Of a stretch of DNA of 64,000 nt, positions 6,097-14,406 are shown piece after piece. Both the position numbers and the translations under genes were made by a program. The notes beneath the pieces are model-generated. The model worked only from the letters and a program-made list of their open reading frames with translations. It was not told the origin of the DNA and searched no databases. Every line of letters begins with the position of its first letter. Position 1 is the first letter of the stretch. This DNA is from Nocardioides okcheonensis (GTDB lineage Bacteria > Actinomycetota > Actinomycetes > Propionibacteriales > Nocardioidaceae), in contig NZ_CP087710.1 in assembly GCF_020991065.1 (NCBI RefSeq), positions 1,364,001-1,428,000 of the forward strand, read 5' to 3'.

Positions 6097-6954
6097 TCAG
6101 CCCCGGGCGGGCGCCGGCCGGACCACCGCGCGCCGGGCCGCGCGACGCAGCGTGGTGAGGATCGCCGGCCCGAGGACCACGATCGCCACACCCGTCGTGA
6201 TCGCCCGGCCGGTGTCCCAGCCGCCGGTCGAGGTGAGCAGGGTGTAGACGAGGAAGCGGTGCGCGTTCTCCAGCACCGGCGCCCCCGCGACGTAGGCCAG
6301 CGACCCCTCGTGCCCCGGCACCACGATGCCGAGGGTGAAGGGCCAGAAGCTGAGGTTCATCAGCAGGCCGTAGAGGTAGGACGCGACGACGGCGTAGGCG
6401 ACCAGCATCGCGATCTCCGCGCGGCCGCCGACGCGGCGCGGGAGCAGGCCGGCGCCCATGCCGACCCACGCGGCGCAGATCATCTGGAACGGCAGCCACG
6501 GACCGACGCCGGCGGTGAGCAGCGCCGAGGCGAAGAGCGAGGTGCAGCCGAGCACGAAGCCGAAGCCCGCGCCGAACACGCGGCCGCCGAGCACCAGCAG
6601 GAAGAACACCATCTCGATGCCGGCCGTCCCGGCGCCGAGGCCGCGCATCACGGCGTTGATCGCGGACAGCACGCCGAGCACCGCCAGCACCCGGGAGTCC
6701 ATCCCGCCCTCGCCCATCTCGGCCAGGACCACGACCATCACCAGCGGCAGCAGGGCGAGGAAGAGGAACGGCGGCTCGACCCGCTGGCCCGGCTGGGCGT
6801 CGAGCAGCAGCGGCCAGCACAGCATCATCAGACCGGCCACCGAGGCGAGGACGAGCACCGCGGCCGTGCGCGGCCCGATCGGCAGGGCGACACCGGGACG
6901 GTCGTCGCGGACGGTACGCGCCCGGGCGGAGGTCGCGCGCTCCAGGAGGCTCAT
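6097..6954 (-). CDS. ECF transporter S component (predicted cobalamin)
   Basis: A 285-aa membrane protein with about six hydrophobic helices, including RVFGAGFGFVLGCTSLFASA and GPWLPFQMICAAWVGMGAGL, typical of energy-coupling-factor S components (the substrate-binding subunit). The ATG overlaps the stop of the ATPase gene (ATGA). It is last in the run barrel protein - DUF4430 protein - T - A - S behind a cobalamin riboswitch. That context, not a diagnostic residue, is why I call the substrate cobalamin or a corrinoid. Vitamin-binding residues could not be identified. Confidence 0.85.
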   Translation of the reverse strand: MSLLERATSARARTVRDDRPGVALPIGPRTAAVLVLASVAGLMMLCWPLLLDAQPGQRVEPPFLFLALLPLVMVVVLAEMGEGGMDSRVLAVLGVLSAINAVMRGLGAGTAGIEMVFFLLVLGGRVFGAGFGFVLGCTSLFASALLTAGVGPWLPFQMICAAWVGMGAGLLPRRVGGRAEIAMLVAYAVVASYLYGLLMNLSFWPFTLGIVVPGHEGSLAYVAGAPVLENAHRFLVYTLLTSTGGWDTGRAITTGVAIVVLGPAILTTLRRAARRAVVRPAPARG

Positions 6955-8558
6955 CGCGCCACCCCGGCGAGGGCGTCGGCGACTTCCTCCACGACCAGCC
7001 ACGGCGCGCCGAGGACCTTGGTGACCTGCGGGGCGAACGACGGCGACTCGGCGAGCACCCGCCGCGGCGGCCCGCTGGAGACCACCTCGCCCTCGGCCAT
7101 GACGACCACGTCGTCGGCGACGTGGGCGGCGAACTCGACGTCGTGGGTGGCCAGCAGGACGGCGTGCCCGTCGGCGGCGAGGTCGGCGACGATCCGCGCC
7201 AGCTCGGCCTTGCCGGCGTAGTCGAGGCCGCGCGTCGGCTCGTCGAGCAGCACGACGGGCGGCCGCGCGGTCAGCACGACCGCGAGCGCGAGCGCGAGCC
7301 GCTGGCCCTCGGAGAGGTCGCGGGGGTGGGTCGTGGGGTCGATGCCGGGCGCGAGCCGCCCGAGCAGGCCTCGGCAGGTGCCCGGGTCCGCGTCGGCGCC
7401 GGTGTCGGCGGCGGCGCACTCGTCGGCCACCGACTCCAGGTAGAGCAGGTCGGCGGCGGTCTGCGGCACCAGCCCGACGTGGGCGCGTCGCTCGGCGGCC
7501 GACAGGGTGGCGGGGTCGTCGCCACCCACCGACAGGGTCCCCGAGCGTCGCCGGCCGGATCCCTGCAGCGCCCAGATCAGGCTGGACTTGCCGGAGCCGT
7601 TGCGGCCCATCAGCACCGTCACCCGACCGGTCGACAGGGTCAGGTCGACCTCGCGCACCGCCACGGTCCGTCCGTGCACGACGCTCACGTCGCGCGCCTG
7701 CACCAGCGGGGCGGTCGCGGGCAGCGCGACGTCCACCGGCGGCGGCAGGTCCGGCAGGGACCGGGCGTGGCGCCGGGCGTCGCGGACGGTGAGCGGCAGC
7801 GGGTCCCACCCGGCGAGGCGACCGAGGTCGACCAGCGGCGGGGCGACGGGCGAGTCGGCCAGCACCACCTCGGGCGCGGCCGTGCGGATCCCGCCGTCGC
7901 CGGTCACCAGGCAGATCCGGTCGGCGAACGGCACCACCCGCTCGAGGCGGTGCTCGGCGAGCAGGACGGTCAGCCCGAGGTCGTGCACCAGCCGGGTGAT
8001 CGTGGCGAGGACGTCCTCGGCCGCCGTGGGGTCGAGCGCCGAGGTGGGCTCGTCCAGCACCAGCACGCGCGGGTGGGTGGTCAGCACCGAGCCGATCGCG
8101 ACCCGCTGCTGCTGCCCGCCCGAGAGCGTGCGGAGGTCACGGGCGCGCAGGTCGGCGATGCCGAGCAGGTCGAGCGTCTCCTCGACCCGGCGGCGCATCG
8201 TCTCCGGCGGCACGCCGAGCTGTTCCATGCCGTAGGCGAGCTCCTCCTCGACCGTGTCGGTCACGAACCCGGCGAGCGGGTCCTGGCCGACGTAGCCGAC
8301 GAGGTGGGCCCGCTCCCGCGGCGGCTGGTCGAGGATGCTGCGGCCGTCGAGCAGCACGTCGCCGGTCAGCTCGCCGCCGGTGAACCGCGGCACGAGGCCG
8401 GTGACCACCCCGAGCAGGGACGACTTCCCCACGCCGGTGCGCCCGGAGACCACGACCAGCTCGCCCTCCTCGAGGGTGAGGTCGACGTTGCGCAGCACGT
8501 GGTGACGGTCGTAGCGCAGCCCGATCCCGCGCAGCTCGACCACCTCGCGCCCGATCAT
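6951..8558 (-). CDS. ECF transporter duplicated ATPase (A component)
   Basis: A 535-aa protein fusing two ABC ATPase domains (the A and A' subunits of group II ECF importers are usually separate). Domain 1: Walker A GRTGVGKS (39-46), signature LSGGQQQRV, Walker B VLVLDEPTSALD, switch LLAEHRLE. Domain 2: Walker A GRNGSGKSS at about residue 340, signature LSEGQRLALA, Walker B VVLLDEPTRGLD, switch LLATHDVE. Both sites look catalytically complete. It overlaps both neighbours by four bases (ATGA at each end), so stoichiometric expression with the T and S components is expected. Confidence 0.92.
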   Translation of the reverse strand: MIGREVVELRGIGLRYDRHHVLRNVDLTLEEGELVVVSGRTGVGKSSLLGVVTGLVPRFTGGELTGDVLLDGRSILDQPPRERAHLVGYVGQDPLAGFVTDTVEEELAYGMEQLGVPPETMRRRVEETLDLLGIADLRARDLRTLSGGQQQRVAIGSVLTTHPRVLVLDEPTSALDPTAAEDVLATITRLVHDLGLTVLLAEHRLERVVPFADRICLVTGDGGIRTAAPEVVLADSPVAPPLVDLGRLAGWDPLPLTVRDARRHARSLPDLPPPVDVALPATAPLVQARDVSVVHGRTVAVREVDLTLSTGRVTVLMGRNGSGKSSLIWALQGSGRRRSGTLSVGGDDPATLSAAERRAHVGLVPQTAADLLYLESVADECAAADTGADADPGTCRGLLGRLAPGIDPTTHPRDLSEGQRLALALAVVLTARPPVVLLDEPTRGLDYAGKAELARIVADLAADGHAVLLATHDVEFAAHVADDVVVMAEGEVVSSGPPRRVLAESPSFAPQVTKVLGAPWLVVEEVADALAGVAR

Positions 8559-9697
8559 GCGGCCACCTCCCGGTCGACGCGGTCCGGGGCCGGCGCGGCC
8601 TCCGGCTCCCGCGCGGCCCGCACCGGGGTCGTCGCGGGCAGCGGGGTGGCGACCGCGGGCACCAGGCCGAGCAGGCCGACGGCGAGCGCGAGCGGCGAGA
8701 GGTAGGGCATCACGTCGACGGTCGGGTAGGCGACCACCACCTGGGTGCGGCCGAGGTGCCAGCCGAGCACCGCGACCGCGACGCCGACGCCGACGGTCAG
8801 CAGCTCGGGCGGGTTCCACGGGTCGGGGCGGTAGCGGGTGCGCTCGACCCGGCGGCCGGCGCTGACCAGCCCGACCACCGCGACCAGGACGCCCGCCCCG
8901 AGCATCGGCAGCGCCAGCACCCGCGGCGCGGTCGGGTCGAGCCAGGCGTAGGTCCCGACGCAGATGCCGGTGAGGGCGAGCATGAGCAGCGCGCCGGTGG
9001 TCCACCGCTGGCGCGGGGTCGCTCCCCCGGAGCGGCCGTAGCCGCGGGTGTCCATCCCTGCGGCGAGCGCCAGGGAGCGCTCCAGCGCGTCCTCGAGGAC
9101 CGGCACCAGGAAGCGGCGCAGCCGGGCGACCCCCTTGGTCGCTCCCCCGCGCAGGGCCTGTGCCGCCCGGACCCGTCGGGCGCTGTCGGCGAGCTGGGGG
9201 AAGATCGTCACGGCGACGACGAGGGCGGTGCCGATCTCGTAGAGCGCGGGCGGCACCGAGGCCAGCAGCCGCTTGGGGTTGGCCAGCGAGTTGGCGGCGC
9301 CCACGCACACGATGATCGCGGCGAGCCGCATCCCGTCGTAGAGGCCGGCCAGCAGTGCCTCGCTGGTGACCGGGCCGAGCAGGCGGATGCCCGCCGCCCA
9401 GTCCGGCAGCGGCACCTCGGGCAGGTCGAGCAGCACGTGCCCGACCTCCTGACCACCGAAGACGATCCGGAAGACGACGCGCAGCACGACCGTCAGGACG
9501 GCGAGGGCGACGTAGAGGCGGAACGAGCGGCCGAAGGGGTGACCGGACCGGCGTGCCACGACCACCACCGACGCCGTGCCCATCACGAGGAGGAGCAGCA
9601 GCGGGTTGGTGGTGAGCGACGCCGCGGTGGCCAGCCCGATCGCCCAGGTCCACCAGGCGATCGGGTGCAGGTCACGCGGCAGGGCCGGTCCGGTCAC
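8555..9697 (-). CDS. ECF transporter T component (EcfT-like)
   Basis: A 380-aa membrane scaffold that couples the ATPase to the S component. GTG start. Hydrophobic helices in the N-terminal half precede a cytoplasmic region with two coupling motifs, AQALRGG and AGMDTRGYG, corresponding to the A-x-R-G boxes that dock in the ATPase grooves. An extra C-terminal membrane part ends in a charged tail. It starts six bases after the DUF4430 gene stop and overlaps the ATPase gene by ATGA. Confidence 0.9.
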   Translation of the reverse strand: MTGPALPRDLHPIAWWTWAIGLATAASLTTNPLLLLLVMGTASVVVVARRSGHPFGRSFRLYVALAVLTVVLRVVFRIVFGGQEVGHVLLDLPEVPLPDWAAGIRLLGPVTSEALLAGLYDGMRLAAIIVCVGAANSLANPKRLLASVPPALYEIGTALVVAVTIFPQLADSARRVRAAQALRGGATKGVARLRRFLVPVLEDALERSLALAAGMDTRGYGRSGGATPRQRWTTGALLMLALTGICVGTYAWLDPTAPRVLALPMLGAGVLVAVVGLVSAGRRVERTRYRPDPWNPPELLTVGVGVAVAVLGWHLGRTQVVVAYPTVDVMPYLSPLALAVGLLGLVPAVATPLPATTPVRAAREPEAAPAPDRVDREVAA

Positions 9698-9703
9698 GGC
9701 GCG

Positions 9704-10815
9704 TCAGGCCCCCCGTCGCCGACGCGCGACCAGGGCGGCGCCGGCGAGCGCCGTCGCGAGCAGCCCGACGACGCCCCAGGTCACGGCCGCGGGCACGCGG
9801 TCGGGTGCGGCGGCCGTCGGGGTCCCGGAGGTGGGCGCCCCGCGTCGGCCGACCCGGCCGGGTCGACCGTCGGGTCGTCGGTCGCGTCGGTCGCGTCGGT
9901 CGGGTCGTCGGTCGGGTCGCCGGCGCGGTCGTCGCGCCCGCCGGACCTCGAGCCCTTCTCCGAGCCGGCCTTGGGGTCCGCCTTCGTGCCGGAGCCGGAC
10001 CGCGAGCGGCCTCGGTCGTGCCGGGCGTGGACCCGGCGTCCCCGGACGGGCTCGCGGAGGGCGACGACGTCGCCGACGATCCGGACGACGGGGTGGAGGA
10101 CGGGCTCGGCTGCGGTGAGGTCGAGCCGCCCGTGCCGCCGTTCTCGCCACCGCCCGAGCCGCCCGAGCCGCCGGAGCCGGTGGAGCCGCCGCCGGACGGC
10201 TGCGAGCCGCCGGTCGTGCCACCGCCGGAGCCGCCGCCGGAGCCGCCGCCCGACGTCGGCGTCGCGCTCGGCGACGAGCTCGGCGCCGGCTCGGAGGTCG
10301 GCGTGGGGCTCGGCGTGGCCGAGGCGGTGGCCGGCGGCGCGACGGCCGGGGACGCTCGTGCCGGCGGTGCGGTCCTGCTGCCAGGACCAGCCGACCGAGC
10401 CGCCGGCCGGGACCGTCAGGCTGCCGACGCCATAGCTGGAGTAGGTCCACGACGCGCGGCTGCCGTCGGCCCACCACAGTCCCCAGTAGGCGTTGGCCGG
10501 CGAGGTGTTGACGCAGGGGTCGCTGGTGGGGGCGCCGTTGACCCGGCACACGAAGCCCGGCTGGCGGGTGGCGTAGGTGATGGAGACGCCGACGGACGCG
10601 AAGATCGCGGCGGCGCTCCTGCCGCCGCCGTCGGCGGCGCAGGCCGTGACGGTGCCCCCGCCGAGCTCGCGGTAGTCGACGACCACGCTGACACCGCCGG
10701 CCGACGTGCAGGTCGCGGCGGTCGCGGCCGGGGCCGACCCGAGGGCGAGCCCCGGGCCGGCCACCAGCACGGCGAGGGCCGCGGCGAGGCGGCGTACGAC
10801 GCGGGCCGACGTCAT
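9704..10815 (-). CDS. secreted, membrane-anchored DUF4430 (transcobalamin beta-domain-like) protein; frame slips in this sequence
   Basis: The ATG at 10815 overlaps the barrel gene stop (ATGA) and gives a signal peptide (cleavage near Ala34). A domain of about 110 residues with four cysteines follows, with the end pattern AYWGLWWADG...SWTYSSYGVGSLTVPAGGSVGWSW. This is the hallmark of DUF4430, the C-terminal beta domain of transcobalamin and intrinsic factor. Next come a Ser/Pro/Thr/Gly linker, an Asp/Thr-rich linker (DDPTDATDATDDP) and a C-terminal hydrophobic helix plus RRRR. These parts lie in different frames. One extra base at the C run 10348-10351, one missing base near 10005 and one missing near 9838 would unite them. 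Either the gene is broken or the sequence has base errors. I favour errors because codon use stays good in the reconstructed path. Confidence 0.75.
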
Positions 10816-12686
10816 CGCTGCGTCTTCGCCTTCAGCACGGTCGAGCCCGAGCGGAGGTCGGCGAACTGGCCGACCGCACGCACCCGGACCTTGGCGCGAC
10901 CCTGCGGGACGGCGACGCGACCGACGAAGCGGCCCTTGTCGTTGGCGCGGCCCTTGGCGACGACGGTGCCCCCGACCAGCAGCCGCACCTTCTCGCCGGC
11001 GGCCAGGCGCCGGACCAGGACCCGCGCACGGGGGCCCTTGCCGCGCGGCGTGGTCACCTTGAGCCGGCGCTTGCCGAGCACGTCGGTGACGTCGGAGACC
11101 CGGCCGTCCGCACCGACGAGGGTGTAGGTCGCGGCGCCCGTGCCGGAGGGCAGGGTGACCGAGCGGGTCAGCGTGCCGTCGGAGCCGGCGTAGACGGTGA
11201 CCCCGGTGAGGCCCGGGCCCTCGAGCACGTAGCGGGCGCCGGCGGCGGCGCCGGTGACGTCGAGCGACACCCTGCCGCCCGCGCGGTGGAAGCCGGTCGG
11301 GCCGGCGAGGCGGACCCCGCCGACGGCGCCGCGGGCGGAGCCCACGGTGGTGGTGCGGGAGCCGTCGCGACCGCTCACGGTCCAGGTGGGCTGGCCCGAG
11401 GTCGGGACCGTGACGCGCGCCGTGGTGGTGCCGTCGGCGCCGACGACGAGCGTCCGGGTGCCGGTGACGCCCGGACCGGAGAGGCAGTAGCGGTCACCCG
11501 TGCGGCCGCCGGCGATCGTGAGGGTGGAGGCCGAGCCGGGCTCGGCGGGCGTGGTGGTGAGGGTGAGGCCGGAGACCGCGCCGCGGGCCTGGGTCAGGCC
11601 GGCGACGGCCTGGACCGTCGCGCGCCACCACTGGTCGCGGGTGGCGTCGGTGATGCCGTCGGCGCGGGCCGCGGTGAGGGCGTCGTCGGCGTAGGCGATC
11701 GCGCCGTCCTCCCCGGCGAGCGGGGCGGCGGCACCGGGGGCGACCTGGCGGCCCTCGACCCACTCGGCGGCTCGGCCGGCCTGCTCGCAGCGACCCGCCG
11801 ACGCGAGGGCGGCGGCCGCGAGACCGGTGCTGTTGGAGTTCGGGTCGGGCGTGAACGCGCTGCCGACGAACGAGCCGTCGGTGCGCTGGTTGGCGACCAG
11901 CCACGCGACCGCGCGGTCGATCGCGGCCTGGACCCGCGCGGGTCGCGGGGAGATCGCGGACAGCTGGGAGACCACGAGGGCGGTGGTGTCGGTGTCGGTC
12001 GGGTCGGTGCCCTCGACGCACGACTGCTCGGCGGCGTCGGCGGCGCTGAAGAACACCCGGAAGTAGCCCGAGGTGCACTGCTGCCGGAGCAGGAAGTCGG
12101 TCACCGGCGCGGCCTTCGCCGACCCGGCTGCGGACAGGCCCCGGGCGGCGAAGACCTGGCCGAAGGTGTTCGCGTAGTCGGCACCCCCGTCGACCTGGTC
12201 GGCGAGGCGCCCGGCGGTGGGGCCGGACGCGATGACCCGGTCCTCGACCTGCTGGACCAGGTCGAACCCACCGTAGGCGCGGGCGTCGGCCCCGGACACC
12301 TGCGCGAAGACGAGGGCCTTGGCGAAGGACCCGGAGTAGAGGTCGCCGGGGACGCCGTAGTCGACACCGGTGGCGTAGCTCGCGACCCGCGACGACATCG
12401 CCTGGCGGATCTGGCGGACGAGCGCCTGGTCGCCGCCGACCTCGTCCATGCTCAGCGCGATGTCCGCGGTGAGGCCGTAGTCCGGGAAGTCCGGGTAGTT
12501 CGGGTTGATGACCAGGCCGTCGGTGAGCTGGGTGGCCAGCCACCCGGTGGCCGAGCGGGCCGCGGAGGAGGCCGGGTCGGCGGGGGCGGCCGTGGCCGGC
12601 GCGGACAGGAGCGGCTGGGCGAGCACGGAGGTGCCGAGCGAGACCGCCACCCCGAGCACGACACTGCGGGACAGGGAGAGCTTCAT
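10812..12686 (-). CDS. secreted helical-barrel protein, intrinsic-factor alpha-domain-like, with Ig-like repeats
   Basis: A 624-aa exported protein. The start at ATG 12686 follows AGGAAGG and gives a signal peptide of about 34 residues (ends ATAAPA). Residues 40-380 form a prenyltransferase/squalene-oxidase-type alpha-alpha barrel, with repeats such as AVAWLVANQRTDGSF and DFLLRQQCTSGYFRVFF. The cobalamin-binding alpha domain of intrinsic factor and transcobalamin has this fold. Residues 385-620 are three beta-sandwich-like repeats, probably spacers. It is the first gene after a cobalamin riboswitch and is followed by the DUF4430 protein and an ECF importer. Catalytic residues of terpene cyclases are not evident, so a binding role is likelier. 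Confidence 0.85.
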   Translation of the reverse strand: MKLSLSRSVVLGVAVSLGTSVLAQPLLSAPATAAPADPASSAARSATGWLATQLTDGLVINPNYPDFPDYGLTADIALSMDEVGGDQALVRQIRQAMSSRVASYATGVDYGVPGDLYSGSFAKALVFAQVSGADARAYGGFDLVQQVEDRVIASGPTAGRLADQVDGGADYANTFGQVFAARGLSAAGSAKAAPVTDFLLRQQCTSGYFRVFFSAADAAEQSCVEGTDPTDTDTTALVVSQLSAISPRPARVQAAIDRAVAWLVANQRTDGSFVGSAFTPDPNSNSTGLAAAALASAGRCEQAGRAAEWVEGRQVAPGAAAPLAGEDGAIAYADDALTAARADGITDATRDQWWRATVQAVAGLTQARGAVSGLTLTTTPAEPGSASTLTIAGGRTGDRYCLSGPGVTGTRTLVVGADGTTTARVTVPTSGQPTWTVSGRDGSRTTTVGSARGAVGGVRLAGPTGFHRAGGRVSLDVTGAAAGARYVLEGPGLTGVTVYAGSDGTLTRSVTLPSGTGAATYTLVGADGRVSDVTDVLGKRRLKVTTPRGKGPRARVLVRRLAAGEKVRLLVGGTVVAKGRANDKGRFVGRVAVPQGRAKVRVRAVGQFADLRSGSTVLKAKTQR

Positions 12687-12690
12687 GGTT

Positions 12691-12895
12691 CCTTCCTCGC
12701 TGCAACAACGGGAAGGGAGACGGCCGTACGCCGGTCCAGCCCCGCTGCATTCCTCGACAGCGATGGTGGTCAAGACGCGTCGAGGCGGGTGTTCCGGCTC
12801 GCACGGGATCGCTCCCGTGCCCACGGTTGCGGGTCAGCGCCGGTTTCGGACCGGCTTTCCCCAGCTCGGGCGTGTGTGGTGCCGAACCCGGTCGG
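12691..12895 (-). ncRNA. cobalamin riboswitch
   Basis: Minus-strand leader of the barrel gene. It contains the B12 box GCTGACCCGCAACCGTGGG (12820-12838), preceded by a hairpin AGCCGGTCC-GAA-ACCGGC and followed by a perfect seven-base stem loop (12802-12819) and the conserved segment GCCGGAACACCCGCCT (12784-12799). Order and spacing match the AdoCbl/cobalamin riboswitch core. The remaining 95 bases to the ATG would hold the expression platform and the AGGAAGG ribosome site. No intrinsic terminator is obvious there, so translational control is more likely. The outer limits are approximate. Confidence 0.88.
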
Positions 12896-12936
12896 GCGCG
12901 GCTCGCGAAGCGTAACCCCCTCACCCGCCCGGACGC

Positions 12937-12996: not shown

Positions 12997-14406
12997 TCAG
13001 TTCGAGACGCGCAGCGAGGTGCGGGCCTCGTCGTCCGAGGTCTTCACCAGGCCGACCCGGCGCTGGTTGCCGGCGGGAAGCTGGAGCTTGCGGACGATCT
13101 TGTCGCCGGACTTCTTGCCCTTCACGCGCAGGAAGTCGCCCTTGACCTGCATGCAGGCGCTCTCGCTGGGCGCGAGACCGAACACGCGGAACTGCACGCG
13201 CTCGCCCGAGCGGGCCTGCTTGCGCACCGAGACGATGCGCAGCTTGTCCTTGCTCGCGGGGGCGAACTGCAGGCCGAGGATCGCCTGGGCGGTGGCGCGG
13301 CGCCACTCGTCGCGGGCCTCGGCCGGGATGCCGGACGTGGTGGACGCCTTGACCCGGTCCTTGCGGTAGGCGACGGCGCCGGTGTCCTTGGTCAGCGCGG
13401 TGCGGCACTTGTACTTGTCGACCGGCTGGTTCTTGCGCACCCACAGCGCGGCCTTCTGGGACGCCTCGCGGTTCTTCAGCAGGCCGAGGGCGTAGCCGCT
13501 GAGGGCCGTGGTGTTGGTGTTGATCTTGCTCACCGGCGCGGCGGCGCGGAACGCCCCGCTGTTGCGCTGGCGGTCGGCGAGCCAGGTGCCGGCCTTGGCC
13601 AGCGCGCCGACGACGGCGGCGCTCTTGTCGCCCGACTCGACGAGGTTGATCACGGCGAGCGCGGTGGCGTCCGGGTCGACCTCGCTGCCGGCCACGCCGT
13701 CGGTGCACGACTGGTTCGGCAGGTCGGCGTTGGCGAAGTCGGCGCGGAACGCACCCGACGCGCACTGCTGCTTGAGCAGGAAGTCGCGGGCGGTGGCCGC
13801 CTCGGTCGACTGCGCGAGGGTGAGGGCGCGCACGGCGTAGGACTGGCCGACGACGTTGGCGAAGTTGCCGGACGCCGACTTGTCGAAGATCCGGCCGGCG
13901 ATGGCGGCCTTCTGCGGCTCCGCGGCCGGGTCCGCCGGGACGTCGGCCGTGCGCTCCTCGAGGCGGGCGATCAGGTTGATGCCGCCGTAGCTCGTCGGGT
14001 TCTTCTTGGCGACGCGGGCGAACGCCGCGGCCTTGCCCAGCGCCCCGGCGTAGGACTCCGCTGTCCCGTTGCCGACGTACTCGGCGATGCGGGGCTCGAG
14101 GGTGTTGTTGATCGCCGTGACGGTGCCGCCCTGGCTGGACACGGTGGACAGGGCCATGCCGGTGTCGATGGTGAGGCCGAAGTCGGGGTTGGTCCCGCTG
14201 ATCAGCAGGCCGTTCTCGAGCTCGCCGGCCATCCACTCGGCGGCGATGGTCGACGGGGTGCTGTCGGTGCTGACCGCGGCCTTGGCCGAGCGGAGTGCGG
14301 GCGACGGGTCCGCCGAGGCGGGCGACGTGCCGAGCACGCCGGCCCCCAGGGCGGCGGTCGCGAGGACGGCGGTGGCCGTCCGGAGAGGTCGGTTGCGATG
14401 ACGCAT
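12997..14406 (-). CDS. secreted helical-barrel protein, paralogue of the riboswitch-controlled one
   Basis: A 469-aa exported protein. ATG 14406 is chosen because GGGAAGGAAAG precedes it and MRHRNRPLRTATAVLATAAL starts a signal peptide ending ASADP. Residues 45-370 align in pattern with the next gene's barrel (WMAGELENGLLI, DFLLKQQCASGAFRADF, GTWLADRQRNSGAF). Residues 385-469 form one beta-rich domain instead of three. It is the same prenyltransferase/intrinsic-factor-alpha-like fold, with no visible cyclase motif. It lies downstream of gatB and upstream of the cobalamin operon. No B12 box is visible in its own 118-base leader. A corrinoid-binding role is inferred from paralogy. Confidence 0.82.
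   Translation of the reverse strand: MRHRNRPLRTATAVLATAALGAGVLGTSPASADPSPALRSAKAAVSTDSTPSTIAAEWMAGELENGLLISGTNPDFGLTIDTGMALSTVSSQGGTVTAINNTLEPRIAEYVGNGTAESYAGALGKAAAFARVAKKNPTSYGGINLIARLEERTADVPADPAAEPQKAAIAGRIFDKSASGNFANVVGQSYAVRALTLAQSTEAATARDFLLKQQCASGAFRADFANADLPNQSCTDGVAGSEVDPDATALAVINLVESGDKSAAVVGALAKAGTWLADRQRNSGAFRAAAPVSKINTNTTALSGYALGLLKNREASQKAALWVRKNQPVDKYKCRTALTKDTGAVAYRKDRVKASTTSGIPAEARDEWRRATAQAILGLQFAPASKDKLRIVSVRKQARSGERVQFRVFGLAPSESACMQVKGDFLRVKGKKSGDKIVRKLQLPAGNQRRVGLVKTSDDEARTSLRVSN

Follow-up and report, generated by a model that had tools for sequence, protein, structure and literature searches.

Animal intrinsic factor, transcobalamin and haptocorrin carry B12 by means of an alpha/alpha barrel and a beta domain joined on one chain. 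In bacteria, Burroughs et al. (2007; PMC1796856) described a toroid and a transcobalamin-like domain in operons with CbiO and CbiQ, proposed that they scavenge B12, and suggested a bacterial origin for the animal B12 carriers. The energy-coupling factor (ECF) transporter ECF-CbrT of Lactobacillus delbrueckii is an experimentally demonstrated B12 importer (PMC5997447), and Bacteroides captures B12 with BtuG surface lipoproteins (PMC6143338). In this study, we analysed a window of 64,000 nucleotides from Nocardioides okcheonensis (contig NZ_CP087710.1, positions 1,364,001 to 1,428,000), whose minus strand carries, from window position 12903 to 6097, a riboswitch followed by genes for a barrel protein, a beta-domain protein, EcfT, fused EcfA-A' and the substrate-binding S component. 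This operon is a variant of a kind so far only predicted (Burroughs et al., 2007), and it is probably a B12-repressed system for corrinoid capture and import. The initial annotation, which had read it as intrinsic-factor-like B12 capture and import, was supported.

As in the clade of Burroughs et al. (PMC1796856), a secreted toroid and a transcobalamin-type beta-grasp domain have ATPase and CbiQ neighbours here, the two domains are fused in either order among relatives, and the host lacks central genes of B12 synthesis. The domain features of that clade, namely the hairpin, a match to transcobalamin, a secretion signal and CbiO/CbiQ neighbours, were all present in the window. The clade was described from low-GC Gram-positives, planctomycetes and some euryarchaea, whereas the present operon belongs to Actinomycetota. 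Here the beta domain lies beyond Pfam DUF4430, the toroid and beta domain are separate genes, a riboswitch is found across relatives, and an S component is identified, which is fused to the toroid in one relative (P0338; weaker in P0352).

Like ECF-CbrT (PMC5997447), the importer is a B12-linked ECF system with T, A, A' and S; the Lactobacillus ECF module is common to several S components, whereas T, fused A-A' and S stand in one operon here. Its S component is not recognisably similar to solved S components, and secreted capture proteins are added. BtuG proteins capture B12 at the surface, as is proposed here, in a different envelope and with a different transporter (PMC6143338). The animal carriers have the same two folds (the beta domain was modelled for the window, the barrel for a relative), and their domain order recurs on one chain in fused relatives. 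Unlike them, the window encodes two chains in separate genes, an ECF importer adjoins, and B12 binding is predicted. The alpha6/alpha6 barrel of the three carriers was also found, and PF01122 was unmatched in the window's proteins and weak in one relative (L110, E 0.0058). The fold of BtuG is expected to differ from those of the capture proteins here.

Results

Adjacent genes of the operon overlap or are separated by 6-base gaps in the list of open reading frames (ORFs), and 12903-6097 is likely to be a single transcription unit. The single overlapping operon claimed earlier was borne out, with every part named in it lying on the minus strand.

Barrel 1 (10812..12686, minus strand) is a 624-residue protein with an ATG start, a signal-like N-terminus and no further hydrophobic stretch. 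The barrel covers approximately residues 30-445 and is followed by a tail without a recognised anchor. A profile of 50 barrel sequences found squalene-hopene cyclase at E 1.3e-26 and complement C4 at E 1.5e-5, and we identify the protein as a secreted alpha/alpha barrel. It is very unlikely, in our estimate, that the barrel is instead a wall scaffold or acts as an enzyme, be it a terpene cyclase, a glycan hydrolase or a thioester protein, with only the beta domain and the ECF importer handling B12. DxDD is the defining catalytic motif of squalene-hopene and other class II terpene cyclases; it was absent from 50/50 barrels, which argues against a class II terpene cyclase. The thioester motif CGEQ was also absent from 50/50. 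Moreover, many relatives carry the barrel joined to the beta domain, P0338 carries it joined to S, and some solo barrels have B12 riboswitches, all of which argues against an enzyme or scaffold.

The beta-domain gene starts at 10815, overlapping the barrel 1 stop, and its initial 149 codons are open (10369..10815, minus strand). They encode a signal-like N-terminus and a domain for which sequence profiles against the PDB gave only three low-complexity matches, to the linker; its fold was therefore modelled. AlphaFold2 of 10728-10369 gave a pLDDT of 88.8 and a pTM of 0.83. Foldseek and VIA matched this model to B12 carriers, with a whole-domain VIA match to transcobalamin, and strands 50-52 and 60-63 after helix 39-45 were read as the hairpin. 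As modelled, the beta domain has the transcobalamin beta-domain fold, and the earlier expectation that structure models would match intrinsic-factor domains held for it. In five relatives (P0243, P0253, P0264, P0283 and P0346) a precomputed PF28005 match is recorded, which was absent when P0264 and P0283 were scanned here; PF28005 might be the beta domain.

EcfT (8555..9697, minus strand), a CbiQ-like transmembrane coupling protein, matched PF02361 with 33.2 bits (cut-off 25; E 5.3e-8) and has seven hydrophobic stretches and an AAGMDTRG motif. The fused ATPases EcfA-EcfA' (6951..8558, minus strand) matched TIGR04521 (E 2.7e-77) and TIGR04520 (E 7.9e-77), each under its cut-off, and carry the Walker A, signature and Walker B motifs in duplicate. 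The S component (6097..6954, minus strand) has seven hydrophobic stretches and a weak Pfam match of its own (PF07155, E 0.084). Its homologues numbered 7871 among 7996 candidates scored; many of the 120 listed have a precomputed PF12822 match, and one (P0065) was named CbrT by its depositor. The named S components nearest to it are from Nocardioides. These results confirm the full ECF importer of the initial annotation. In one relative, a single open frame of 1006 residues (L107:2108-5125, minus strand) contains matches to T, A-A' and S, apparently a single-chain ECF importer.

The operon leader (12774..12903, minus strand) was assigned to the cobalamin riboswitch aptamers. At the Rfam gathering score, no riboswitch was found in the whole window; on a 2.5 kb piece, RF00174 scored 27.5 bits (E 1.8e-4), below its cut-off of 31.5. 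Our own covariance model was trained on 26 leaders, from the window and 25 loci, which match by construction; it gave the window leader, one of the training rows, 116.5 bits. The 26-leader alignment has a conserved core and covarying stems, and 11/25 consensus pairs show, in one or more sequences, a change on both sides that preserves the pairing. Rfam models passed their cut-offs at the operon leader in three of the seven loci given, L041 (RF01482), L053 and L075 (both RF00174), and in L048 only elsewhere in the locus. Since the homologous leaders of L041, L053 and L075 pass, we take the window leader to be a short RF00174 member. The earlier claim of a cobalamin riboswitch was borne out.

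In a hairpin at 12691..12716 (minus strand), a likely expression platform, the barrel gene's GGAAGG ribosome-binding site is base-paired. Folding of 12686-12770 gave a minimum free energy of -37 kcal/mol (z -1.94), with 5/200 shuffles equally stable. A similar hairpin was found in L001, and the ribosome-binding site was not clearly paired in L034 and L040. As the hairpin pairs this site, the riboswitch likely acts on translation in the window. In two Aeromicrobium loci (L039, L056), the riboswitch precedes a barrel and beta-domain pair located after S. A second B12 riboswitch match in the host genome lies outside the window (locus L082, G000:C1:59105-59230; 69.6 bits) and precedes a small protein that matches DUF6221 weakly (E 9.4e-5, under cut-off).

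Co-occurrence was examined at loci L001-L080, the best 80 of 250 confirmed loci drawn by S component. The beta domain was found at 75 of them, the barrel at 66 and the riboswitch at 70. Ten of the 80 have less than 6 kb of upstream DNA; in the other 70, which include one duplicate (L005 and L006, near-identical, from one genome), the beta domain was found at 70, the barrel at 66 and the riboswitch at 70 (25 of these being training loci of our covariance model). The genome search proposed with the initial annotation returned barrel, beta domain, ECF genes and riboswitch together. At L067, L074, L079 and L080, a smaller version of the operon consists of riboswitch, beta domain and ECF module, and no barrel was found.

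Among 396 Actinomycetota genomes, a strong S match was present in 52/52 with the beta domain and in 21/344 others (Fisher p about 2e-48, kinship ignored). The division into strong and weak S matches was set by us and gave 75 strong places in 73 genomes (weakest E 8e-28) and 45 weaker ones. At the strong places, the beta domain lay within 8 kb in 47, the barrel within 12 kb in 47, and both in 36; at the weak places, the beta domain was near in none and the barrel in 17. Six places with no beta domain nearby or only a barrel were inspected by eye. At L097, L099, L100 and L102 a weaker match to the beta domain adjoins T (E 2e-4 to 1e-11), so the proximity counts at strong places are lower bounds; no beta-domain match was seen in L098 and L103.

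The barrel and beta domain are fused in transcobalamin order in six ORFs (L108-L113) and 13 proteins, and in reverse order in nine proteins. Three of the six ORFs carry wall-binding (CWB2) domains and one carries S-layer repeats. One chain also joins the S component to a cyclase-like alpha/alpha barrel, clearly in P0338 and less so in P0352. In the VIA list for a fused model, the beta domain was not separately listed because the barrel fills the list, which is no argument against the beta domain.

The host genome (4.47 Mb, single contig, completeness 99.64%) encodes eight B12-binding domains, seven of them over cut-off. The B12 users are MetH, two proteins of methylmalonyl-CoA-mutase type, an IcmF-like protein, lysine-5,6-aminomutase, a corrinoid protein and two CarH-like proteins. 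CobN was not found in the host genome, and its only three tetrapyrrole-methylase matches read as CysG, CobA-HemD-like and RsmI. Judged by gene content, the host requires B12 yet lacks central corrin-synthesis genes. CobN was weakly depleted in beta-domain genomes (6/52 vs 89/344, p = 0.024).

An alternative cargo would be a corrin precursor, an incomplete corrinoid such as cobinamide, or cobalt, with the secreted pair tuned to that ligand and not to complete B12. EcfT belongs to the CbiQ family, S has no sequence match to solved CbrT, and ECF-CbrT also transports cobinamide (PMC5997447), which would all fit. We nevertheless hold such a cargo to be quite unlikely, given the B12 riboswitch in 70/70 loci. 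Cobalt import would bring little benefit to a host without CobN whose corrin methylases are only of CobA/CysG type, nor would a cobalt importer be expected to have a partner of transcobalamin fold.

A second secreted barrel, barrel 2 (12997..14406, minus strand), lies upstream of the riboswitch and matched SCO2321_fam NF053823 (E 4.1e-15, 55.6 bits; cut-off 300). Two barrels were found in 22/23 loci (L001-L020, L022-L024, with L005 and L006 near-identical), and in a quick tree barrel 2 clusters with same-position barrels of other Nocardioides, separate from barrel 1. Our covariance model gave no riboswitch match of its own for barrel 2 within the window. We infer that it belongs to the system. 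In eight Amycolatopsis loci (L053-L055, L057-L060, L066), a divergent solo barrel stands beside the operon, with its own B12 riboswitch match in seven and none found in L053.

Discussion

In the proposed B12-repressed capture and import system, falling cellular B12 would cause the riboswitch to release the barrel gene's ribosome-binding site. Sequence features mark both barrel 1 and the beta domain as secreted, and the beta domain would be held at the membrane by a C-terminal anchor, as in relatives. Fold, gene pairing and fusions suggest that the two close over one corrinoid as a split intrinsic factor or transcobalamin. The corrinoid would then be passed to S and, as expected of the family, pumped in by the ECF module using ATP. 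The main cargo would be B12 itself, and, as central corrin-synthesis genes are missing from the host, its B12-dependent enzymes would be supplied by this import.

Several observations weigh against this proposal. In the window, the beta-domain gene changes frame several times within a Gly/Ser/Pro/Thr-rich, low-complexity linker, which with the C-terminal membrane anchor occupies 9704..10368 (minus strand) by three-frame translation. The membrane segment ending at 9704 is readable in a third frame, and in close relatives the gene is a single open frame (L001, 376 aa; L002, 395 aa; L017, 347 aa). Of the secreted, membrane-anchored protein annotated earlier with a corrected frame, the signal and the anchor sequence are thus present, and continuity of frame is seen in the relatives. 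The capture system of this strain could be degraded, with real frame changes releasing the beta domain unanchored, and the changes do occur in a one-contig genome that is 99.64% complete. We regard this as extremely improbable: the changes are confined to the GC-rich low-complexity linker, the beta domain and other genes are open, the anchor can be read in a frame of its own, the gene is uninterrupted in close relatives, and sequencing error is at least as likely as real frame changes.

On the same side, the Foldseek E-values of the beta domain are all above 0.001 (best 2.8e-3), and Pfam DUF4430 (PF14478), the label first given to this domain and not confirmed here, matched 0/30 family members at E <= 1 and nothing in the host genome. 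No transcobalamin is among the best 60 of 66 barrel-profile matches, which are cyclases, complement and others, and a profile of 24 S proteins found no PDB sequence (E <= 10), CbrT included. The fused-relative model has a pTM of 0.62 and a whole-chain rmsd of about 21 A to transcobalamin, so that domain placement is uncertain. The barrel is absent in 4/70 complete loci, and in L008 and L025 the sole barrel lies upstream of the riboswitch, adjoining the beta-domain gene. Neither secreted protein was near by our cut-offs at 17/75 strong S places, three of which begin no more than 1.7 kb from the upstream end of their contig, and L098 consists of A and S matches alone. CobN is not rarer in S-bearing genomes (17/73 vs 78/323, p = 1). 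Another B12 importer may also exist in the host. BtuFCD homologues were reported in >90% of B12-using non-producers (PMC2667541). Of three host FecCD matches, a pair is best matched by siderophore permeases and the third by a zinc permease, all under cut-offs; as the siderophore models are under cut-offs, the pair might serve in a BtuCD role.

The window's barrel, which shows no recognised anchor, might be released as part of a split, partly diffusible 'corrinophore'. It would bind B12 at a distance from the cell, much as a siderophore or gastric intrinsic factor does with its ligand, and be recaptured by the membrane-held beta domain, which would then close over the vitamin and dock on S. We consider this elaboration unlikely. 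If true, bacteria would have an intrinsic factor made of two proteins, and such an arrangement could be ancestral to the fused carriers of animals.

With Burroughs et al. (2007) aside, the actinobacterial arrangement is not evidently described in the literature searched, most subscription papers lying outside that search. On sequence grounds, the new elements appear to be an actinobacterial branch beyond Pfam DUF4430, separate genes, riboswitch control in relatives and an S-barrel fusion. In our judgement, corrinoid import in many Actinomycetota is poorly known, and a 2025 review still lists mycobacterial import and its partner proteins as open questions (PMC12713380). The genes analysed here provide a concrete importer candidate with a capture pair sharing the human B12-carrier fold. 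Establishing their function would also help to judge whether the B12 carriers of animals came from bacteria, as Burroughs et al. (2007) proposed.

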